The notes below the pieces were generated by a model, which saw only the letters and a list, made by a program, of their open reading frames with translations, was not told the origin of the DNA and searched no databases. A program made the position numbers and the translations under genes. Positions 16,518 through 34,624 of a stretch of DNA of 34,624 nt are shown one piece after another; positions within the stretch are counted from its first letter, which is position 1; each line of letters starts with the position of its first letter. The DNA is from a bacterium (GTDB lineage: Bacteria > UBA6262 > WVXT01), in assembly GCA_035530055.1 (NCBI GenBank), contig DATKVN010000055.1, positions 1 through 34,624 on the forward strand. Direction: 5' to 3'.

Positions 16518-16538
16518 GGTTCTGGAGTCCGCCCGAAA

Positions 16539-16659
16539 GAGGCTGTGTCGTAACCCTAATTCTGGTAGTCGCAGGCTTTAGCCTGCGCAATTTCCCCGTC
16601 GAGAACGCAACCTGAAGGTTACGGCTACCAAACAAAAAATCTAATTATGACACAGCCTC
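16539..16659. mobile_element. MITE-like insertion with terminal inverted repeats, interrupting a palindrome
   Basis: A 121-bp segment is bounded by perfect 11-bp inverted repeats, GAGGCTGTGTC (16539-16549) and GACACAGCCTC (16649-16659), with further imperfect matching inward. It splits a copy of the repeat GTCCGCCCGAAAGGGCGG: CCCGAAA precedes it and GAAAGGGCGG follows, so GAAA (up to CGAAAG, depending on where the element ends) is duplicated. No coding capacity is present. Its core is a family A palindrome. No transposase is visible, so the element would be non-autonomous. Confidence 0.65.
16564..16629. repeat. Family A nested palindrome, second full copy
   Basis: The outer stem GGTAGT/GCTACC encloses the hairpin CGCAGGC-TTTA-GCCTGCG and a second hairpin AACCT-GA-AGGTT with flanking CG pairs. 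Compared with 3226-3280, the second leaf has changed on both strands (AAAC/GTTT there, AACC/GGTT here) and the linker is longer. Confidence 0.8.
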
Positions 16660-16761
16660 GAAAGGGCGGAATAAAAAAGGATATGTACTTTTTTGCTTCT
16701 GGACTCCTCCCAAAAGGGAGGGATGTACTTCACCTTGCTTTCGCAAGGACTCCAGGGTTTT

Positions 16762-16811
16762 GGAGTAGCGAAACTTGTTTCGCGTCAACGCACCGCAAGC
16801 GGTGCTACTCC
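16762..16811. repeat. Family C cloverleaf repeat, three leaves
   Basis: A 50-bp unit has an 8-bp outer stem, GGAGTAGC/GCTACTCC, enclosing three abutting palindromes: GAAAC-TT-GTTTC, GCGT-CA-ACGC and ACCGC-AA-GCGGT. There are no unpaired linkers. Flanking sequence (about 16690-16880) holds related hairpins such as CCTTG-CTTTCG-CAAGG and CCGTCC-GAAA-GGGCGG (16824-16839). The second full copy is at 30401-30453. Confidence 0.85.
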
Positions 16812-16883
16812 AATTATTGGAGTCCGTCCGAAAGGGCGGAATCTAGTTTTCCCCCGATTTCATCGGGGGACTCCAGAAATTTC

Positions 16884-22244: not shown

Positions 22245-23756
22245 TCAGGAGCTCGTTTTGGCCAGTTCTCCCCTGGCTATCTTTCCTGTCTTTGTCTTGG
22301 GAAGACTCTCCCTGAACTCAACTTCCTTGGGAACTTTGTAGTCTGCCATTTTCTCACGACAGTAATCGATTATCTCCTTATTCGTAGCTTCCATTCCCTC
22401 TTTCAGGGCGACAACTGCTCTTATTCTCTCACCTCTTTTTGGGTCAGGAGCACTCACTACTGCCACTTCTTTTATCTTGGGATGGTGGTGAAGAACGTCC
22501 TCAACCTCGGAAACATAGACCATCAATCCTCCCACATTTATCCTGTCCTGTTTCCTTCCCACAATGTAGATATAACCATCCTCGTCTCTCCGCGCTAAAT
22601 CGCCAGTGTGTAGCCAGCCATCCTTGATTATCTCCTCAGTGGCTTCAGGGTCATTGTGATACCCTTTCATTACGTGTGACCCACGAGTAACTATCTCACC
22701 AACCTCTCCCACGGGAAGTTCATCTCCATCCTCATCTACTATCTTCACTTCCTTGCCCGGCATTGGCTTGCCAATGTTTCCCAAGGGAGCATTGCTGTCG
22801 GGTGACTCGAGGGTAAGTAGAGGCGAAGTCTCAGTTAACCCATAACCTTGACAACATCGTCTTAATCTCAGTTTTTCTCCAAGTTCCTTGACCAGCCCGG
22901 GAGTTGAATACGCGCCCATAAGGGCGACAGCTTTCAAGCTGGACAAGTCGTACTTTTCAAATTGATTCAACTGTATCAATGCATTGGCCATAGGGGGCAC
23001 AAAATGGAGCTTAGTTACGCGGTTCTTCTCTACAGTCTCCAGCCATTTCCTGGGATTGAAAGCCCCTAAGATTGAAGTGGCAACCCCCATCACAATCGTC
23101 TGATTGAAAAGAATAGGTCCACTTATATGGGATGCGGGTAATGAGAGCATATAGACATCGTCCTCGGTGGTTTTCCATATAGCGTGCATATCTTTAGGGA
23201 ACCAGTCCAGGTTACCAAAAGTTACCATTACTCCCTTTGGCTTGGCAGTAGTCCCTGAAGTATAGAGATAAAGAGCTGTATCTCCATCCTCAACTTCCAC
23301 GGGAATAACTCGGGAGGAATCTTTATCTCTCATCTCTTTGAAAGATTTACACCCTTGTTTCACTTCTTCTCCCACCACGATGATGCTTTTTATACTGGGA
23401 ATTTCTGCTCTCATGGAGAGAAACATATCCTGAAACTGGCTGGTGGTAATAACTACCGCTGGTTTAGCGTCACCAAAAATTAACTTTACTTCCTCCTCTT
23501 TAAGCCTCACATCGAGTGGAGCATGAATAGCTCCAACTTTCAGGATAGCATAATAACTTAAAGCAATCTCCATTGCATCGGGCAGAAAAGTGACCACGCA
23601 GTCACCTTTCCTCACACCCTCCCCAATTAGACCTGCGCTTAGATTGTTCACCAGACGGTCGAGCTCCCGGAAAGAGACTTTCTCATCCTCAAAAAATATG
23701 GCCACCTTGTCTCCGAACTTACTAACACTTTCTTCCAGAACCTTTCCTATATTCAT
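22245..23756 (-). CDS. AMP-forming acyl-CoA synthetase/ligase
   Basis: About 503 residues of the ANL superfamily, which activates a carboxylic acid as acyl-AMP and passes it to CoA. Core motifs are intact: P-loop YTSGTTAKPKGV, YGLTETSPL, the hinge region GWLHTGDLARRDEDGYIYIVGRK, and the catalytic Lys in PKTKTGKIARGEL near the C-terminus. It resembles medium/long-chain fatty acyl-CoA ligases; the substrate cannot be fixed. I place the start at 23756, six bases after the AGGAGGAGG run, not at the upstream in-frame ATG that overlaps the porin gene. It is the last gene of the exporter locus. Confidence 0.93.
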   Translation of the reverse strand: MNIGKVLEESVSKFGDKVAIFFEDEKVSFRELDRLVNNLSAGLIGEGVRKGDCVVTFLPDAMEIALSYYAILKVGAIHAPLDVRLKEEEVKLIFGDAKPAVVITTSQFQDMFLSMRAEIPSIKSIIVVGEEVKQGCKSFKEMRDKDSSRVIPVEVEDGDTALYLYTSGTTAKPKGVMVTFGNLDWFPKDMHAIWKTTEDDVYMLSLPASHISGPILFNQTIVMGVATSILGAFNPRKWLETVEKNRVTKLHFVPPMANALIQLNQFEKYDLSSLKAVALMGAYSTPGLVKELGEKLRLRRCCQGYGLTETSPLLTLESPDSNAPLGNIGKPMPGKEVKIVDEDGDELPVGEVGEIVTRGSHVMKGYHNDPEATEEIIKDGWLHTGDLARRDEDGYIYIVGRKQDRINVGGLMVYVSEVEDVLHHHPKIKEVAVVSAPDPKRGERIRAVVALKEGMEATNKEIIDYCREKMADYKVPKEVEFRESLPKTKTGKIARGELAKTSS

Positions 23757-23778
23757 TTTCATCCTCCTCCTTTCTCCC

Positions 23779-25167
23779 TTAGAATCCAAATCTTAATTCA
23801 AAAAACAGCTCGTCTCTCTCAGCAAACTGCCCATAAAGATTCTTGGGTTTACCTTCAAAAATATGGACACCGGCAACTGCTACGAGACTATCCAGAATTT
23901 CAAACTGCACCTTAGGAGTTATTTTCCAGTCATTATCCAATCCATATATCACCAGGACCTCTGGCTTGAGCCTCTCATGCATAAAATCTGTAGAGAGCTT
24001 CAGGCTTAACATAGTAGTTACCTGATCCATTGGACCCAATGTTGGTCCAAACAGGAGACTATTGCCCTGATAACTTGCCTTGGATGTAATGAACTGGATG
24101 AATTGCAGGCTGGCAAGCCAGTTTGTCACCAGAGACTTATCGAATCCCAGGACATAGTTAAAGTTGTCCAGTTTCACTGGAGGACCTGCAACTCGACCAT
24201 CTGTTCCGTAGTAAGTAGGAACGTCTTGAATGTAAGCAAATTCACCCCTTATGGTCAAACCAGAAAGTGCCCCTTTAGTCAGGGCTTTGGTGAACGAAGC
24301 TCCATATAGGTATATCCGCTCATACCTCTTCTGAAGATTCAAGGTATCTGCAGGTCCAAACCAAGAATAATTGGCTCCTGGAAGATAGAATCCATACAGG
24401 AAATTGAGAGTATATTCGAATCCTCCCAATACATCAAGCCAGCGAAAACCTATAGTGGTATCCGACAAATCACTCCAGGGATCTGGCTTTACTTCTTCGT
24501 GGAAGGAAACCTTCGCGCCCGGCGGCCCGTTAATAAGCCAATTAACCACACTCGCTTGACCAAGCACTGATGCCCGGAAAGTAAAGGGAGCGCCTACAGG
24601 CGGAATGTAGTTTGCTTGGAAATCTGGAATAAACAGACACTGAAAAGTTCCGTTAACCGTTGGCGCATACTCTAACTTAACCATCCACAGAGGTATGCGG
24701 CTGTCAGCATAGTCATCGAGGGTGAACTCTCTCATATCAGTAGGATTTACTGCATCCAATATCTTCACACCATCGGCAGTTCCCCAGACCACCTGCTGTC
24801 TTCCTAACCTGACATCCAACCTGTCGGAAAGGAAATCCACATACAACTCCCTGAGCCAATCATTGGTAACATCTGTGCGGTAAAGTTCGCTTTTCACAGG
24901 TTCATATTGTTCTTCAGCGTCGAAGACACCGTCATAGAAAAACCTGAAAAGCCCAAATAGATGTAGATATTCTGTTGGTGTATATTCTACTCCCATCTGG
25001 ACTGTATTCTCAATCTTCATAAACTCGCCCATTTTCAGATGGCTCGCTGTCTCATTCTTTATTACCCCGGAAATGGTAACATTTTCAGCAACATCGATAC
25101 CATAAACTGAAGATGCCACCAAAACCATAAGCCCAATAATTAAAAATCTACTAACTCCTCGCTTCAT
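23779..25167 (-). CDS. DUF1302-type outer-membrane beta-barrel protein
   Basis: This 462-residue protein has a signal peptide (about residues 1-23, ending VYG) and alternating amphipathic strands, and it ends in Phe (FELRFGF), the usual C-terminal signal for outer-membrane barrels. The segment GRQQVVWGTADGVKILDAVNP is characteristic of DUF1302 family proteins, which often accompany RND exporters of the MMPL/HAE3 type and LolA-like proteins. AAGGAGG lies before the ATG. It probably supplies the outer-membrane step, or takes up a hydrophobic substrate. Function within the family is not established. Confidence 0.85.
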   Translation of the reverse strand: MKRGVSRFLIIGLMVLVASSVYGIDVAENVTISGVIKNETASHLKMGEFMKIENTVQMGVEYTPTEYLHLFGLFRFFYDGVFDAEEQYEPVKSELYRTDVTNDWLRELYVDFLSDRLDVRLGRQQVVWGTADGVKILDAVNPTDMREFTLDDYADSRIPLWMVKLEYAPTVNGTFQCLFIPDFQANYIPPVGAPFTFRASVLGQASVVNWLINGPPGAKVSFHEEVKPDPWSDLSDTTIGFRWLDVLGGFEYTLNFLYGFYLPGANYSWFGPADTLNLQKRYERIYLYGASFTKALTKGALSGLTIRGEFAYIQDVPTYYGTDGRVAGPPVKLDNFNYVLGFDKSLVTNWLASLQFIQFITSKASYQGNSLLFGPTLGPMDQVTTMLSLKLSTDFMHERLKPEVLVIYGLDNDWKITPKVQFEILDSLVAVAGVHIFEGKPKNLYGQFAERDELFFELRFGF

Positions 25168-25203
25168 CTTTAACCTCCTTAGAATTCAAGAATTCTTATT
25201 TTC

Positions 25204-25227
25204 GTCACCCTAAAGCGACCGACCTGT
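25204..25227. repeat. Third copy of the TCACCCT...CCGACCTGT repeat
   Basis: It lies between the LolA-like gene and the porin gene and matches the direct copies at 18580-18636, with two bases missing in the AAGGGC part. There is no sign that it terminates transcription. Confidence 0.65.
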
Positions 25228-25235
25228 TCAGAACC

Positions 25236-26099
25236 TTACCATTTACTTCTCATCAAAGTCTTTTCTGTAAACAACCCTTCTTTCAATCCCGAATCAAATT
25301 TTATCTCATCAAATGTAATAATTGTTTTATGCCCGGTTCTCACGTTCTTACATTCCAGTAATGTCTGAGGTAAGTACCCCTTTTGGTACTCTTGATATTC
25401 TCTAAAGAGTGTCCTTGCTTTTCTCTCCAGGGGATCGTAAATCTCATCGTAGATACTGGCTCCTGTATTCTTGTCAATCCAGACAATCCGTTTCGAATAA
25501 TACCAATCTTTTCTCTTTGGTTTTGCTTCCACCAGGTAGCAATCCAAACCCTCATAATAGGTCTTTCCCGTAAACTCAGAGTGGTAACCTTCAAATTTTT
25601 TATTCCCAATGATTTCATAAGTTTCGTCTTCCCACCTGCGGATGGTAATCTCTTCGGTAGTAAAATCAGTTCCCATAAAGGAATCATCTGCTTGCGACTG
25701 AGAGATTCTCCTTATCTTTCTCAAACTGGGTAGCCACAGCCAGACGTCCTGTTCCTTTTTCGGGTCGATGTAAGTCCAGGTTAAAATTGCCAGACCTTTT
25801 ACGTTGCCTGGCTCGGTGAACGCCACCACATCCTTATAGTCTATCCCATCGCTCTTTCTATTCAAAGTAATGCGCGACCTCAAAAATTTCCTATGTCTCT
25901 TAAAACCTCCCTTAGTAATCAACCACACATGGCCTGTGCTCTGGTAGTCCTGGGCAAATTTAGTGTGCTTGATATAGTACTTTATCTTCATTAATTCATC
26001 GGCTGAAATTCCTTCGTACGGTTTATCAATGGCACTCGCAAGCTGAGTCAAAACCAAAACCAGACCGCAAACCAGAAAAAACAATTTTAAAGACTTCAT
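25236..26099 (-). CDS. LolA-like periplasmic lipid/lipoprotein carrier (COG2834 type)
   Basis: This 287-residue protein has a signal peptide (1-23, cleaved after ASA). The mature part fits the outer-membrane lipoprotein-sorting family that neighbours HAE3 RND exporters: WLWLPSLRKIRRISQSQADDSFMGTD-type region (about residues 121-146), then YYEGLDCYLVEAKPK and a C-terminal GLKEGLFTEKTLMRS. LolA-fold proteins carry a hydrophobic ligand across the periplasm. Its place between the RND and porin genes supports a role as the shuttle between inner-membrane pump and outer-membrane acceptor. Confidence 0.85.
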   Translation of the reverse strand: MKSLKLFFLVCGLVLVLTQLASAIDKPYEGISADELMKIKYYIKHTKFAQDYQSTGHVWLITKGGFKRHRKFLRSRITLNRKSDGIDYKDVVAFTEPGNVKGLAILTWTYIDPKKEQDVWLWLPSLRKIRRISQSQADDSFMGTDFTTEEITIRRWEDETYEIIGNKKFEGYHSEFTGKTYYEGLDCYLVEAKPKRKDWYYSKRIVWIDKNTGASIYDEIYDPLERKARTLFREYQEYQKGYLPQTLLECKNVRTGHKTIITFDEIKFDSGLKEGLFTEKTLMRSKW

Positions 26100-26164
26100 C
26101 TTTCATCTCCTTTCTTTATATTTTAATTTAGAAAATAACCAATCTATCTTTCCTTTCTTTATCA

Positions 26165-26280
26165 CCTCCTTTCGCTTCGCTCAATCCGGCCGGGGTTCTC
26201 ACTATCTCGAACCCGTCGCCAGACCTGTCGCTCCTTACTCGTCGCGACGGCGACCCTTCCGCTTCGCTTCAGTTCCCGAT
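26165..26280. repeat. GC-rich repeat region between exporter and LolA-like gene
   Basis: This gap holds CGCTTCGCT direct repeats, a GAACCCGTCGCC block with GTCGCTCCTTACTCGTCGC that is a diverged relative of the tandem repeat at 13664-13809, and a hairpin TCCCGAT/ATCGGGA at the end. It is a composite of dispersed repeats with no open frame of note. Confidence 0.55.
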
Positions 26281-26284
26281 TTAT

Positions 26285-28669
26285 TCATCGGGACCCTCCT
26301 TTTTGCACCTTATTACTGCCTCTCCCCTTGGGGGAGAGGGGAGGGTGAGGGGGAATTATAAATTTTGGTTTGAAAATAGAAATAAGAGCAGGAAGCAGAA
26401 TCAATGCACCGAGCATATTCAATAGGAGAAGTGCCCCGAGAATAACTCCCAACCTGGCTTGTAAGCGAATATTGGAAAATACCCAGGAGAAGACTCCCAG
26501 AGCCACTGTTGCTCCTGTAAAGAATACAGCTTTCCCTGAAGTCTCCAGAGAAGTATATATTGCTCTTTCGAATGGCAATCCTTGTCTCAGCTCTTGCCTG
26601 AGACGACTGGTGACATATATCCCATAATCTACTCCCAATCCTATTCCCAAAGCGGCTACAGGTAATGTTTCTACTGTTAAGCTCACTCCCAGAAGACCCA
26701 GAGTTCCAAAAGTCAAAAGCACCCCCAGAACCAGAGGTATCAAAAGTAGAATCCCGGCAACATACGACCCATAAGCAACCCAAATACAAATAAATACTAT
26801 TGAAGATAATTGTATTATGTTTTGGGGCAAGACCTTTCTAATAATCTCATTTATAGCTGCCAGAATTCCGATATCTCCTCCTGGATAACGGAATTCAAAA
26901 TTCTGAACCTTATGATTCTTATCCACCCACTCTTTAGTTGCAGTCAGTACTTTGTTTATGGTCCCTGCCTTATGGTCTTTCAAATCAAATTTGATGTTGG
27001 CATACTTGTAATCAGGACTAACCACAGGGTCAAAATCACCGGGAAATGCAGTCATGGAGTAGAGGAAGAGATATTCTGCTATGGTTTGGCTCTTCTCAGG
27101 AACTCTTAAATATCTGGGGTTGCCGCCAAACATTGCAAAGTTAAGGCCCTTAATATAATCTACTAAGGAGAGGGAATGCCCTGCTTCAGGGATTTTCTCC
27201 TTTACGTAATTCGTAAGTGACTCCATTTCTAAAAGTGTCTGAGAATCTACCAGGCCTTCCTCTTCTTTACCTTCAATTAACACGTAATATGGGCTGGAGC
27301 CGGCAAATTTATTGCTTATCATCGTCTCGGCAACATTATAGGGAGAATTGCGGTAGAGAGATGCCGAACCAGGTTCATTATCCCCGACTACAATTCTGGA
27401 AGCACCTATCGTTCCCACCACTCCCAGGACGAGGAAAATACCTACCACTGCCCATCTGGAAAGGCGGTGTATACTCAAAGAGGATATTTTTCCCAGAATC
27501 CTGTTCAGCAAATTGAATTTTTCCTCTCGCTCAACCTCCTTTCTTTTAGGAGAAGGAAGAAAAGAAAGGATTGCAGGTATAAAGGTTACAGTAGTGAAGA
27601 AGATACTTAACACTCCTGCTCCGGTAGCCAGAGCCATACTCCTAATCATTGCCAGAGGGACTATAAGAAGAGAAAGAAAACCCAATCCATCAGTAACAAG
27701 GGAAGTGCAGGCGGGAACAAAGAGAGACTGAAGTGTTTCCTGAGAGGCTTCTTTGCTGGAAAGATGCTTCAGTTCATCTTCATAATATCTCTTTATAAAT
27801 TGAACAGAGTGGCTTATCCCCAAAGCCAGTACCAGAAAGGGCGTAAGTATGGTGGTTGGACCAAGCTTATATCCTGAAAGAGTAAGAATACCTAACCCCC
27901 AAACAGTAGCCATAAGACTGGAAGCAAGGGGAAGGAGAATTCCTCTCTTAGACCGGAAAGCAATGTATAAGATTAGAATCATTACAATTAGCGTTCCCAT
28001 AAAAATTTTCCCCATTTTGGGAGTATAGAAGTCAAGCCATCCTTCCAATATCGGTCTTCCACCAATGTATATATTGTTATTGGAATCCTTCTCTTCCTCA
28101 ATAATCTGTTGAACCTGGCGAAAGATTCTTCTCGAGGAGACATCCGATTCAAAATCAGCCTGAATTAGCGTGCTTTTGAAATCTTTCGATACAATGGGTC
28201 CATAAATCATAGGATTCCGGACAATAGTCTCTTTCAGTCTTTCCATTTCTTCAGCCGACTTCGGCGGATACCTCATAAGTCTTCTTGCTCCAAATCCCTC
28301 AGCAGTCGCTTTCACACTCTTGATTTTCCTCGCTGAAAGGGAAACAACTCTACCAGCATTTATTCCATTGAGAAGGTATAATTTCTTCGTGATGCTATGG
28401 ACTTTACTGAGAGTGGAATAATTAAATATATCTCCTTCTTTTACTTCAATGGCAATAGAGATTTGATTCAATCCACCGAAGATATGGGTAAGTTGTCTTT
28501 GCACTGCAAGGTAGGGATGTTTCTGGGGAGCAAAATCACCTAAATTGGTCTGCAAAGTTAAATGTCTCAGTTGATAGGCAAATAAAATAGTCAAAGCCAA
28601 AGAAATAAGAATAAATACTATCCTGTGACGAATGACAAATCTGGCAAAAAACTTGGAAAAATTATTCAA
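26285..28669 (-). CDS. RND superfamily exporter, MMPL/HAE3 type
   Basis: About 794 residues with two repeated halves, each a transmembrane helix, a large periplasmic loop and five further helices. The proton-relay region is recognisable as GIGLGVDYGIYVTSRLRQEL in the second half and ALGISHSVQFIKRYY in the first. Family members export lipids, hopanoids and other hydrophobic molecules. I use the TTG at 28669 because GGAGG lies seven bases upstream; an earlier TTG at 28696 would overlap padR. The last 22 or so residues (PPHPPLSPKGRGS and on) are encoded by a dispersed palindromic repeat and are unlikely to be ancestral. Confidence 0.92.
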   Translation of the reverse strand: MNNFSKFFARFVIRHRIVFILISLALTILFAYQLRHLTLQTNLGDFAPQKHPYLAVQRQLTHIFGGLNQISIAIEVKEGDIFNYSTLSKVHSITKKLYLLNGINAGRVVSLSARKIKSVKATAEGFGARRLMRYPPKSAEEMERLKETIVRNPMIYGPIVSKDFKSTLIQADFESDVSSRRIFRQVQQIIEEEKDSNNNIYIGGRPILEGWLDFYTPKMGKIFMGTLIVMILILYIAFRSKRGILLPLASSLMATVWGLGILTLSGYKLGPTTILTPFLVLALGISHSVQFIKRYYEDELKHLSSKEASQETLQSLFVPACTSLVTDGLGFLSLLIVPLAMIRSMALATGAGVLSIFFTTVTFIPAILSFLPSPKRKEVEREEKFNLLNRILGKISSLSIHRLSRWAVVGIFLVLGVVGTIGASRIVVGDNEPGSASLYRNSPYNVAETMISNKFAGSSPYYVLIEGKEEEGLVDSQTLLEMESLTNYVKEKIPEAGHSLSLVDYIKGLNFAMFGGNPRYLRVPEKSQTIAEYLFLYSMTAFPGDFDPVVSPDYKYANIKFDLKDHKAGTINKVLTATKEWVDKNHKVQNFEFRYPGGDIGILAAINEIIRKVLPQNIIQLSSIVFICIWVAYGSYVAGILLLIPLVLGVLLTFGTLGLLGVSLTVETLPVAALGIGLGVDYGIYVTSRLRQELRQGLPFERAIYTSLETSGKAVFFTGATVALGVFSWVFSNIRLQARLGVILGALLLLNMLGALILLPALISIFKPKFIIPPHPPLSPKGRGSNKVQKGGSR
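26319..26339. repeat. CCTCTCCCC palindromic repeat inside the RND gene end
   Basis: CCTCTCCCC and GGGGAGAGG surround a short loop, followed by GGGAGGGTGAGGGGGAATTAT. It matches 18422-18442 in reverse orientation. It lies within the coding sequence, extending the protein C-terminus. Confidence 0.75.
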
Positions 28670-28688
28670 CCGATTTCCTCCGCGCTTG

Positions 28689-29204
28689 TTAAGCAAATTG
28701 TTTTATCAATCTCTCTGTGAATCTGATTTCGGACTTGGCACTCTCCAGAGAATGCTCTGTAATAGCAATCATATGGTACAGGGCTTTCTCTTTCTGAAGA
28801 GTCTTTTCTCTATTCTCCGCCCAGGTTTTTATTCCTCTTAATCCATTCAACCTGTTTTCCAGTCTCCTCTTGACTATTTTAGGATTCCCATATTGGAGAA
28901 AGTAAAGCGAGAGGTCTATATTCAGGTAGGGTCTCTGAATAACGAGAAAATTCTTATTTAGCAGTTTAGCAAACTCTTCTTTCCCCTTTTTAGTAACCCT
29001 ATAGACATACTTCTCAGGACGCCTCCCTGCCTTTCCCGCTCTCTTGGAAACCATACCCTTCTCTTCTAACTTCTTCAAAGGATAGTAAACCGATTTGACA
29101 TTTATGCCAGTAAATTGACTTACTACATTATTAATCTCTTTTTTTATTTCATAACCGTGTTTCGGACCTTCCTGCAATAGACCCAAAAACATCAAATCTT
29201 CCAT
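28689..29204 (-). CDS. PadR-family transcriptional regulator
   Basis: About 171 residues: an N-terminal winged helix (MEDLMFLGLLQEGPKHGYEI, then NVKSVYYPLKKLEEKGMVSK) and a C-terminal helical dimerisation domain of the Vir_act_alpha_C type. PadR proteins are usually repressors released by small hydrophobic or phenolic ligands. I choose the ATG at 29204, eight bases after GGAGG; an ATG at 29219 has no ribosome-binding site and sits in the palindrome. The stop lies about 20 bases before the RND start, so it is the first gene of the export unit and probably its regulator. Confidence 0.92.
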   Translation of the reverse strand: MEDLMFLGLLQEGPKHGYEIKKEINNVVSQFTGINVKSVYYPLKKLEEKGMVSKRAGKAGRRPEKYVYRVTKKGKEEFAKLLNKNFLVIQRPYLNIDLSLYFLQYGNPKIVKRRLENRLNGLRGIKTWAENREKTLQKEKALYHMIAITEHSLESAKSEIRFTERLIKQFA

Positions 29205-30231: not shown

Positions 30232-30291
30232 TTTATTTTAACCCTTCTTAGCTGAAATCGTTCCATCGGGGAAGTCCAGAATTTTTGGAGT

Positions 30292-30359
30292 CCTCCCGAA
30301 AGGGAGGTTGGAGTGTCAAGCGAAAGCTTGACCAAGTGAAACTCTCGTTTCACACTCCA
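30292..30359. repeat. Hairpin plus two-leaf nested palindrome
   Basis: CCTCCC-GAAA-GGGAGG (30292-30307) is followed by a unit at 30309-30359 with outer arms TGGAGT/ACTCCA enclosing CAAGC-GAAA-GCTTG and GTGAAAC-TCTC-GTTTCAC. It has the same layout as families A and C with different stem sequences. The interval 30232-30547 contains only such repeats. Confidence 0.75.
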
Positions 30360-30400
30360 GAATTTAATTACCTCGCTTTCGCAAGGATTCCAGGATTTTT

Positions 30401-30453
30401 GGAGTAGCGAAACTTGTTTCGCGTTAATAACGCAGAGCAAGCTCTGCTACTCC
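30401..30453. repeat. Family C cloverleaf repeat, second full copy
   Basis: The outer stem GGAGTAGC/GCTACTCC encloses GAAAC-TT-GTTTC, GCGTT-AAT-AACGC and AGAGC-AA-GCTCT. Compared with 16762-16811 the third leaf stem differs at three pairs, with both strands changed, and the second leaf is one pair longer. It is followed by a copy of CCTCCC-GAAA-GGGAGG at 30469-30484. Confidence 0.85.
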
Positions 30454-30493
30454 AGAGTCTTTTGGAGTCCTCCCGAAAGGGAGGTATATAAAA

Positions 30494-30549
30494 AAATGGT
30501 CGCTGTCCCTATTTAAATGGTCGCTGTCCCTATTTTTGTCCCTATTTTT
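30494..30549. repeat. Direct repeats of AAATGGTCGCTGTCCCTATTT
   Basis: Two adjoining 21-bp copies (30494-30514 and 30515-30535) and a truncated third (TTTGTCCCTATTTTT, 30535-30549) sit directly after, and overlap, the stop of the SprA-like gene. Confidence 0.85.
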
Positions 30550-33500
30550 AAAACTTTATGGTAAGCGTGGTGCTGATATCAACGGCAAAATAGTTATTCT
30601 GGTCTAAAACGTGATTAATAAAAAAGGTCATTCCGCTTCCTACAGTTAACATTAGATTCGAGCCCACGTTAAAATCACTTGATACCAGGGTAGAATAAGT
30701 GTCAGTATTGTCACTCTCCCAATTGAGCTCGCTTCTCTTAATTTCAGCACTAAAACGAGCCTTGACTCTCATCTCACCTGCTGTTCTGACCTGCTTTCCG
30801 ATTATCGGAATCTTCCAAAGTTCAGGCAACTTTAGACTTGCTTCTACATCTATGCTTGGTGTGTGAATTCGACTTTCGGTAGTCTTCTCCCCGCCGGTTT
30901 TTCCCTCTTCTTTCTTATAGCCATACCTGAGATTAAATCTCCAATCCTTCAACCAGGTAAAAGTAATTTGAGCGTTATATTCCCTATTAAATCCCTCCTG
31001 GCTAATCTGCCAGGAAGGCGCACTTTTTACCTTGTTTCGGGAACTACTGTAGGTTAACCAAAAATAATAATTTTCAAATAATTTAAATCTTAGGTCTTCA
31101 CTGAAGTTTACCGTCTTCCCCAACGAGACATCTCTGGCATCTTCCGTGGTCAGGATATACTTTGTTATCATTTCTGCTTCCTGCATTGCCAATCCAAGTA
31201 GAGGGAATTTTTCCAGGCTACTCATCCTTATATCCAGATAGGGCCAGATGCGCTTCTCGCTATCGAGGATTGTTGGTCCCTGACGGCTCTGTGTGCGAGT
31301 ATAGTCTATGTCAGTGGTTATAGTGCTGAACGGATAAAGATAACCTTTTAAATCGAGAAATTCCAGAGGCTTCCAGTTGCTTTCCATCCTGAAAGTATCG
31401 CGAAGAGAAAAAGATTTCAATTTGTCCTCAACTCCCTCAAGTCTTTTATACCCCATACCCTTGCCCCTTAACCACAACTTCCCATAGATACGATAGTCTT
31501 GACTTATGTTCTCATAACTATCACCATCGTCTAATGCATAAGAGGAAGTGACGTTCAATGAATCTACAGGTTTAAATTTGGGAAAGAGTGTTTTGGCAAC
31601 AAAAGGCAGGCTTAGTTTTGCTGAGCTCAACCTGGTAAAATTCTTCTCTGTAGGAGTTGAGGTGCTGGTAAGGATTACAAAATTTTCCGTATTAGTTATG
31701 CTGTAATTCAAAGAAGGCTTGAACCATTCAAAAAATTGGAGAGTTGAATTAAATCCCGCTGTCTGCGTTCCCGACCGGGGACGGTCCGTCTTACCTTCCA
31801 CATATACTCTTTCCTTCACTTTTCGCAAGGAATAGGAAGGAACAATCGATAAATCAGATAGTGGTCTGAAGGTCGCTTTACCTGACCAATCATTTGTGAA
31901 TTCCCGGAAATTATTCTCTGTAGGAGCAGTGCTTGTGAATTTGTTAAATTTATTAATCCTTTTATAAGAACCCCCTAAATCGCGCGGAAGAAGAAAGAAG
32001 CGAACCGGCAGTTCATACTGGTGGAGAGTAGCGGAATATGTATCCGAATCTTCCCTCTTGCCTTCGGGCTGACTGCGGTCAACAATGCTTTTCGTATAAC
32101 TTGTTCCTACCTGCGGGAGCTTTGGCAGTCTCAATTCCGCGCTGGCACTGCCCTGATGGCTTACCACGCGTCCTTCGTCCTGAAAGCTCAGATCCTCAAC
32201 CCTGACCGCCGAAGGAGTCACTGTGGTGGTCTTGCTCCAATTTAACGAAAGCGGCAGGTAATTGAGTCTATTAAAATTGGTGTAGGCTGAGATTACTTCT
32301 TTGTCCTGATTCTTGCTGGGAACAGTAATCGTCTCGAAATTCCTATCCATATACCAGTACTTCCCGCCAAAAGTGAACCAGTCGGGGAGCTCACAATCCA
32401 AACCGATTCTCCCTGCCCAGCCTTCTTTTTTCCTCGCGCCCGTCACGTGAATCTCATTAACCCATATTTCTCCATCAATATCACCCGCTGTATCATTTAC
32501 AATCATTAGTCTTATCTCTGCAATGTTAGTGAGAACGGGATTTCCTACCCGGGTTATGGTTCCATCTGAACTTTCCATCGTGTCTGCTCCATATTTTCCG
32601 TCCTTCTCTGCCAGGTTGATAGTCAAAAGCTTCCAGCCTCCCCAGTTCACCGTTCTTTCAAATTGGTAATAGTCGCTGGGTGTGCCCAATCTCATTATGA
32701 ACTTCGGGTTCTTTGTGGGAAAATCGGGATTACTAATAAAGAATTTCAGTTCTTCATATTTTGAATAGTCCTCGGCTCTGGTAAATGTCCATTTGGTGTA
32801 GCCTGTTGCGCCGGCAGTCAATGTGTACTTCAGCGAAAGTGCCTGCTCCACTTCCTTTTCTTCAACACTTCTCTCACCGTAAAGGTCTTCATAATCGTTG
32901 TTATAAAGTAAGCCCCGACCGTAAACAGCAAAATCATCCTCAGTATTCACAGCGACAACAGAGAACTCATCATTTGCATCTGTGCTCTGGACAATTCCTC
33001 TTTCCCATTTGTTCCCGATCACGCCCATTGAGGCAATCTTTAAACCTCCCGAAACATTTGATCCCTTCAATGTTATCCTTACGTGCTTTATAGCTGTCCA
33101 GTTTGAAACGGTGTTTGTAGTAATACCGAGGTCCCATTCCACTTTCTTCCATCCGGACCAGTTGATACCCGTGGAAAACGGGAAAACATTACCTTCCGCT
33201 TCCGGACCCACGCGGTCTCCATCCAAATCTTCAGTATCAATTTTCCCGTTCTTGTAGCCGATTTTTCCATCCCTGAGGTAAATCTTCTCATCATCATCAG
33301 TCCATCCCCAAAAATCCCAGCCAACGTCTTCGCCGACATTTAGAGTCCCATCGCCATTAATATCCTCTGTGTCCAACTCCCCATCACCATCGGCATCTTC
33401 AGCAATGCTTCCCAGCGTAATCTCTAAAATCTCTCCCTTATTATCCCCATAAACATATAGTTCTAAACTCTCCTTCTGCGAGTAGTCCACTCCCCGGGTG

Positions 33501-34624
33501 GAAATAGGATAGACAATAGATGCCGTGGCATTCCCGGTCAAATCATAACTAATTTTCAGGACTTCCTGCTCCTCATCTTCACCCACGTCGGCATTTGGTT
33601 TAATATCTTTAATTTTGACATCCTCGTTGTCCCAGCTAATAGCTCCTTCTTGCGTAGGAACTCCTCCCGGATTACTGGCTATCTGCCATACATCTTTATC
33701 AATGGGCATTCCATCAACTAACTTTACCCCTTCCATACTATCAATTATCGCCTTTCCCCAGGTATTGGGATTATTGAAGCTCCTGGCCAATTCTCCGGAA
33801 ATCTTTGTCTGGAAAGGGAAAAATGGCTGGGCGTCAAAAGAGAATTCTGAATTTGCATCCAGAATGAATTTACTTCCGGGGGCTGCCCTCACGTTAGGGA
33901 TGGTTGCCGATTTCGCTGCACCGCTATAGAGGATTGTAGAACCTAAAAAGAACCTGTCTGTGGGCGCCCATTCTCCTCTCGCACCCAATAGAGTCTCCTG
34001 GAAGAGACCGGCAAAGGGCATATATTCATAATTAATCACAATTTCTGTCTCTTCATCAATCTCTTCTTCACGGAAGAATGTAATAAAGCCAGATTCATAG
34101 TCAATGAAATAATCTTCATCCCTTTTGAGTGACCGCTCATTCAACGTAATCTTTTCACTTCCCTCCACGATGTTCGGACGCAGGAAATATGTCTTCTGCC
34201 GATACTTATATTCCATATATATGATGTAATAGTGTTGCGGATTTGTTTTATAGTAGATTTCCTCATGCCCCCCGTAATCCTTGCCAAGTGGCTTTCTGTT
34301 TTCAAATTTCAATATTCCCTCATCGTAATCCATTTCAATCATCCCGTAGGCATTCGGAAACTCAGGCACTTCCTTGCGGTTCAAATCCAAAATCTTTACT
34401 ACAAAGTCCCTGCCTTCAACTCCCTGAATAATCTTTTTTCGTCCTAAGTCGTAATAATTCATCATCTCCTGGTCCAGGAGTTCATTTTCGTCTTTAAGTA
34501 TCTTGCGGTAACCGTTATTGCCCACCGAAATCAATTGACCACTGGAGTCTTTATAATCCACAGCAATGACATAATTTTCATAAATAGTCTTGCGGAAAGT
34601 GATAATCCCTTTGATATAGTCTAT
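30548..34624 (-). CDS. Giant SprA-like outer-membrane protein, 5' end outside the window
   Basis: 1358 residues are visible and the frame stays open to the right edge, so the true start is outside. The N-terminal visible part holds repeated beta units such as YFIDYESGFITFFREEEID and VNYEYMP. The middle has YNLxLG-type jelly-roll-like segments and GEIWVNEIHVTGARKKEGWAG, closely matching the conserved WVNELR region of SprA, the type IX secretion translocon barrel. The C-terminal third is rich in amphipathic strands and ends in Phe (TTLTIKF). Between about 33200 and 33400 are Asp-rich calcium-loop motifs (DADGDGELDTED, DINGDGTLNVGED). Membership of the SprA family is likely; a role in secretion is inference, as no other type IX genes are seen. 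Confidence 0.75.
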   Translation of the reverse strand: MDYIKGIITFRKTIYENYVIAVDYKDSSGQLISVGNNGYRKILKDENELLDQEMMNYYDLGRKKIIQGVEGRDFVVKILDLNRKEVPEFPNAYGMIEMDYDEGILKFENRKPLGKDYGGHEEIYYKTNPQHYYIIYMEYKYRQKTYFLRPNIVEGSEKITLNERSLKRDEDYFIDYESGFITFFREEEIDEETEIVINYEYMPFAGLFQETLLGARGEWAPTDRFFLGSTILYSGAAKSATIPNVRAAPGSKFILDANSEFSFDAQPFFPFQTKISGELARSFNNPNTWGKAIIDSMEGVKLVDGMPIDKDVWQIASNPGGVPTQEGAISWDNEDVKIKDIKPNADVGEDEEQEVLKISYDLTGNATASIVYPISTRGVDYSQKESLELYVYGDNKGEILEITLGSIAEDADGDGELDTEDINGDGTLNVGEDVGWDFWGWTDDDEKIYLRDGKIGYKNGKIDTEDLDGDRVGPEAEGNVFPFSTGINWSGWKKVEWDLGITTNTVSNWTAIKHVRITLKGSNVSGGLKIASMGVIGNKWERGIVQSTDANDEFSVVAVNTEDDFAVYGRGLLYNNDYEDLYGERSVEEKEVEQALSLKYTLTAGATGYTKWTFTRAEDYSKYEELKFFISNPDFPTKNPKFIMRLGTPSDYYQFERTVNWGGWKLLTINLAEKDGKYGADTMESSDGTITRVGNPVLTNIAEIRLMIVNDTAGDIDGEIWVNEIHVTGARKKEGWAGRIGLDCELPDWFTFGGKYWYMDRNFETITVPSKNQDKEVISAYTNFNRLNYLPLSLNWSKTTTVTPSAVRVEDLSFQDEGRVVSHQGSASAELRLPKLPQVGTSYTKSIVDRSQPEGKREDSDTYSATLHQYELPVRFFLLPRDLGGSYKRINKFNKFTSTAPTENNFREFTNDWSGKATFRPLSDLSIVPSYSLRKVKERVYVEGKTDRPRSGTQTAGFNSTLQFFEWFKPSLNYSITNTENFVILTSTSTPTEKNFTRLSSAKLSLPFVAKTLFPKFKPVDSLNVTSSYALDDGDSYENISQDYRIYGKLWLRGKGMGYKRLEGVEDKLKSFSLRDTFRMESNWKPLEFLDLKGYLYPFSTITTDIDYTRTQSRQGPTILDSEKRIWPYLDIRMSSLEKFPLLGLAMQEAEMITKYILTTEDARDVSLGKTVNFSEDLRFKLFENYYFWLTYSSSRNKVKSAPSWQISQEGFNREYNAQITFTWLKDWRFNLRYGYKKEEGKTGGEKTTESRIHTPSIDVEASLKLPELWKIPIIGKQVRTAGEMRVKARFSAEIKRSELNWESDNTDTYSTLVSSDFNVGSNLMLTVGSGMTFFINHVLDQNNYFAVDISTTLTIKF

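Follow-up and report, generated by a model that had tools for sequence, protein, structure and literature searches.

A type IX-like secretion branch, consisting of a SprA channel, cargo-linked PorV-like shuttles and partial control by c-di-GMP riboswitches, is the favored reading of the gene at the end of the stretch of bacterial DNA analyzed here (the window, 34,624 nucleotides) and of its genomic surroundings, with a probability of roughly 55%. Judged from its sequence, the window gene is a divergent SprA by descent and would form the channel through which type IX secretion crosses the outer membrane. The system is regarded as a probable type IX secretion variant, the gene counting as a SprA relative by homology although it scores under the curated cut-off.

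According to the proposed mechanism, cargo with an N-terminal signal would be exported to the periplasm, its C-terminal Ig-like sorting domain would be taken through SprA, and a small barrel of FadL type from the PorV/UPF0164/TraF_2 group would draw the cargo out of SprA and hold it at the surface. Most cargo genes would have their own adjoining PorV-like gene, in some cases with a fusion to TPR repeats or to Ig and OmpA domains, instead of relying on the single PorV that all type A cargo shares in Bacteroidota, while riboswitches of the c-di-GMP-I clan, located before sprA and some of the cargo/PorV operons, would switch part of the system. Both the transport of the cargo and the shuttle role of each partner are predictions.

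The sprA gene and its relationship to known SprA

The long open reading frame reported in the original prediction is real, being free of stops over its 1358 residues and running past the end of the window, where the contig boundary truncates the gene (Table 1). The genome is 1.68 Mb in size (106 contigs, 96% complete), and the window, its contig C55, shares 127 identical nucleotides with contig C81, the end of which is an exact match to the first 42 residues of the window frame, giving a joined sprA frame of 1722 codons. Contig C81 encodes MetK, S-adenosylhomocysteinase, a PorV-like protein, a CTD subtilase, LptF/LptG and the start of SprA. The join is sound, because a related MAG (L004) carries the PorV-like, subtilase, LptF/G and sprA genes with unchanged order on a single contig that is unbroken at this point, and an intact SprA copy of 1683 aa is present in L005.

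Table 1. Coordinates of the SprA homologue and associated features in the window
Feature	Position	Strand	Remark
SprA homologue, C-terminal 1358 residues	30548..34624	-	frame and homology; 5' end continues on contig C81
127-nt overlap with end of contig C81	34498..34624	.	C81 holds first part of sprA, leader and riboswitch
SprA_N (PF14349) match, residues 676-789, contains GEIWVNEIHVTG	32258..32599	-	27.2 bits, cut-off 27
Acidic loop 1, EDADGDGELDTED	33362..33400	-	conserved in SprA relatives; probable calcium site
Acidic loop 2, INGDGTLNVGED	33326..33361	-	alignment of relatives
Acidic loop 3, NGKIDTEDLDGD	33215..33250	-	F. johnsoniae SprA counterpart is DVEDINRDNTMST

The SprA identity suggested by the original prediction was supported by family models as well as by the comparison with the SprA structure that it had proposed. 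The model TIGR04189 matched the window part of the protein with an E value of 1.7e-34 and two full-length relatives with E values of 9.3e-48 and 7.8e-51, the corresponding scores (118, 162 and 173 bits) all lying below the equivalog cut-off of 200. A profile built from 13 SprA proteins, the members of which are 23-42% identical to the first row of the alignment, retrieved Flavobacterium johnsoniae SprA (6h3i) with an E value of 6.4e-58 over three colinear stretches, the C-terminal part lying outside the alignment. This structure was not found in the PDB when a single sequence, a narrow alignment or the acidic-loop region alone served as the query. Two proteins exceeded the Pfam SprA_N gathering score of 27, with 27.2 and 28.5 bits, and the SprA of L005 gave no match to this Pfam model. 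In the window, GEIWVNEIHVTG is located at 32438-32473 and the GWAG motif at 32411-32422. An AlphaFold model of a 586-residue part of SprA including the loop region, calculated without a deep alignment, had a mean pLDDT of 34.

Cargo genes, PorV-like partners and riboswitches

The genome search for PorV and CTD cargo that the original prediction had proposed revealed both in the SprA-bearing genome. The host phylum, which is very small and uncultured, was sampled with six genomes, five of which yielded SprA, the sixth being 76% complete. Type A-like CTD cargo was detected in all six (96 places with E values of at most 0.1), as was PorV over its cut-off, with 51 places matching PorV under the same E-value limit. 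At 32 of the 96 CTD places, a PorV place on the same strand followed directly, no more than 1 kb downstream, compared with 0.27 expected from random placement.

In the genome that contains the window, 14 of 15 CTD places exceed the TIGR04183 cut-off, and gene inspection indicated that 12 of the 15 CTD genes adjoin a gene of the PorV/UPF0164/TraF_2 group. Half of these partners score over the curated cut-off (C36, the second pair of C7, C21, C81, C9 and C60) and half below it (the first pair of C7, C39, C11, C44, C52 and C73); the CTD genes on C28, C65 and C47 have no PorV-like neighbor, the frames on C28 and C65 being cut at a contig end. The partner lies upstream of the cargo on C81 and C9. 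TPR repeats are carried by partners on C7, C9, C11 and C44, and the C21 partner carries FlgD-Ig and OmpA domains. The PorV-like barrel recorded at L070:1-1821, which is joined to FlgD-Ig domains and an OmpA domain, is possibly a peptidoglycan-anchored shuttle. The cargo comprises a subtilase and proteins with CBM96, Big_5/CARDB, fn3, PKD, CBM_11 and lamin-tail domains. Co-variation of CTD and PorV was considered as a further line of evidence and dropped: the distances correlated with an r of 0.64 over 13 pairs, which fell to 0.02 once two copies were removed. Co-evolution is therefore not supported, since the correlation was due to two pairs duplicated as units.

Riboswitch matches exceeding the curated covariance score were identified at a part of these loci. 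An aptamer of the c-di-GMP-I-GGC family (RF03167) precedes sprA in L006 (11085-11161), L005 (2554-2630) and L004 (8698-8774), and likewise in L088; in L006, it is immediately preceded by a 12-of-12 promoter match. Aptamers of RF01051 are positioned 59 to 92 nt before the C36 cargo, the first C7 cargo and the C9 PorV, and a further GGC aptamer precedes a 566-aa protein without a Pfam match on C65. Terminator-like hairpins with T runs follow several of the aptamers, as read by eye and by a scan. Altogether, five aptamers occur in 151.6 kb of the own genome chosen around these genes, and none was found in the window or in 250.5 kb of other own-genome contigs; only 2 of the 15 CTD loci of this genome have a riboswitch. 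Six aptamers of RF01051 were found in 20 loci of genomes G003, G004 and G005, five before CTD cargo and one before PorV; these are not independent, because they appear to be equivalents of the same operons. One more RF01051 aptamer precedes CTD cargo in G001. At the gathering score, no aptamer was detected around the SprA genes of L084, which belongs to the sister family, or of other phyla. The ligand and the direction of switching are putative. A diguanylate cyclase gene (GGDEF, TPR, GAF) and a response regulator gene come immediately after the C36 cargo-PorV pair, which is headed by a riboswitch, at L068:3121-6878.

Motor, sortase, acidic loops and competing explanations

Searches for the remaining type IX components covered the motor and the sortase. 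GldM was found in none of the six phylum genomes and in none of 80 SprA-bearing genomes, and since the controls gave no match either, its absence is not implied. The 80 genomes that entered this second GldM search were drawn from 139, the other 59 being omitted for low completeness, for weaker matches or because they had been tested earlier. No place over the GldL cut-off was detected in the six phylum genomes; a weak GldL-like place was rejected as an MCE/MlaD-type sequence on inspection by eye. A PorU-type C25 peptidase was not found in five of the six genomes, including the own genome, and G004 contains only a fragment covering 58 profile positions. A GldLM motor may be absent from these genomes.

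In a sample of 386 genomes drawn from many families, 139 were matched by a SprA profile of this group. Nine SprA-bearing genomes outside the phylum were compared for CTD and PorV. G145, G134 and G130 contain 69, 81 and 31 CTD places and 2, 7 and 2 PorV places, respectively, and no downstream CTD-PorV pair occurs among the CTDs listed for them (60, 61 and 9). G145 and G134, with many CTDs and few PorVs, show the opposite layout to the phylum of the window. Four pairs were observed among ten CTDs listed for G120 and one among five listed for G069, while G061 matched neither CTD nor PorV. In the low-scoring genomes G370, G076, G151 and G069, the CTD counts are under-counted and represent at least values.

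These results bear on the possibility that the system is an ordinary type IX system, in which motor, ring and sortase have diverged too far for the family models and an expanded set of PorV copies is exchangeable between cargoes. SprA itself scores below its equivalog cut-off, so its partners may be equally diverged; the silence of the GldM controls, set against 0 of 80 genomes, and the lack of CTD-PorV co-variation beyond the duplicated pairs point in the same direction. However, exchangeable copies fit poorly with the tight cargo-then-PorV gene order and with the lack of pairing among the CTDs listed in genomes with many CTDs and few PorVs, and the C25 model that found nothing in five genomes did recognize the fragment in the sixth, so that this explanation is considered somewhat unlikely. 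A role of the PorV-like neighbors as FadL-type uptake channels for the products of surface enzymes, with SprA secreting alone or together with one PorV, appears quite improbable: several partners do match UPF0164, TraF_2 or FadL (Toluene_X) at least as well as they match PorV, but the partners adjoin unrelated kinds of cargo (subtilase, Ig-like, PKD and lamin-tail proteins), and the places matching PorV itself are numerous across the six genomes.

The acidic loops concern another alternative, a different surface-assembly system into which a calcium-binding module has been inserted. The Asp-rich loops that the original prediction had noticed at about 33200-33400 are present within this region and are typical of calcium sites, and in the 11400 residues of window frames of at least 150 aa the pattern D.D.DG occurs a single time, in the sprA frame. 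Yet the loops line up and are conserved across all 13 SprA relatives (23-42% identity), where the region contains variants of EDADGxGxLDTED, then the second loop, and then NGxLDTEDLDGDG, with five acidic residues (E733, E744, D745, D757 and D790 in L005 numbering) invariant throughout. As they are present in all 13 diverged relatives, the loops are, on this alignment, an old family trait. Moreover, because loop 3 aligns with the degenerate stretch DVEDINRDNTMST of 6h3i, the SprA of Bacteroidota looks like a version with degenerate loops. The notion of an inserted EF-hand module was thus abandoned and an inserted calcium domain ruled out, given the conservation across the family, making this alternative extremely unlikely. 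The acidic loops themselves may bind calcium.

Of the original suggestion, the SprA homology and the occurrence of PorV and CTD cargo in the SprA-bearing genome are supported, and an insertion of the calcium loops is not. A position of the host outside Bacteroidota is likely, because the genome falls in the phylum of the six genomes and two related MAGs are labeled 'Clostridia bacterium'. This label of L003 and L004 is doubtful, L004 having LptF/LptG-like and outer-membrane protein genes. A stronger version, which is rather doubtful at present, would describe a separate type IX lineage that lies beyond Bacteroidota, and perhaps beyond the whole FCB group, operating without a GldLM motor and a PorU sortase, with one PorV-like shuttle per type A cargo (the TPR and OmpA fusions being possible periplasmic anchors), and switched by c-di-GMP riboswitches. 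A passage of PMC12611786 describes SprA as FCB-specific.

Relative to SprA/Sov of Bacteroidota (6h3i), the likeness consists of a homology that is colinear over three stretches, together with partners of the PorV type and type A CTD cargo in the genome. The SprA of the host phylum is shorter (about 1.7k residues vs 2.4k) and has fuller acidic loops, and its genomes, unlike those of Bacteroidota with type IX secretion, have many cargo-linked PorV genes, with GldL, GldM (searched without a positive control) and PorU not found. As stated in PMC12618676, type A CTDs are all recognized by PorV, and PorP/SprF genes are commonly located directly downstream of type B cargo. The latter pairs, known from F. 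johnsoniae, resemble those of the host phylum in having the gene for an outer-membrane shuttle directly downstream of the cargo gene; they differ in that the CTD of the host phylum is type A-like (TIGR04183/FlgD_ig) and the partner belongs to the PorV/UPF0164/TraF_2 group. No description of type A cargo with linked PorV genes was found in a limited literature search. The riboswitches resemble known c-di-GMP-I riboswitches (RF01051 and RF03167) in their over-cut-off matches and, in several cases, their terminator-like hairpins, but are unlike them in standing ahead of the gene for SprA and of CTD-PorV operons; the papers listed by a full-text search on type IX secretion with riboswitches and c-di-GMP both concern second messengers in P. 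gingivalis. Should type A cargo be able to have private shuttles, the choice of substrate may reside in cargo-shuttle pairs instead of one PorV. Should there be no GldLM motor, what draws cargo from SprA becomes a directly testable question in these lineages.

Several additional features were recorded. An AMP-binding enzyme, a DUF1302 barrel, a LolA-like protein and an MMPL transporter are encoded in a row near sprA at 22245-28696, and MMPL, LolA-like and DUF1302 genes likewise lie near sprA in L005. At L213:4794-5366, a match to a group I intron, with 51.8 bits against a cut-off of 50, shares sequence with the 3' end of a tmRNA match, and ARAGORN finds no tmRNA there. A 16S gene is present on L157 (4716-6285, minus strand). 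Short intergenic hairpin repeats of the CCTCCCGAAAGGGAGG and GCGAAACTTGTTTCGC types form recurring blocks between genes at 30283-30485 and 16520-16840, as well as in L006 and L069.
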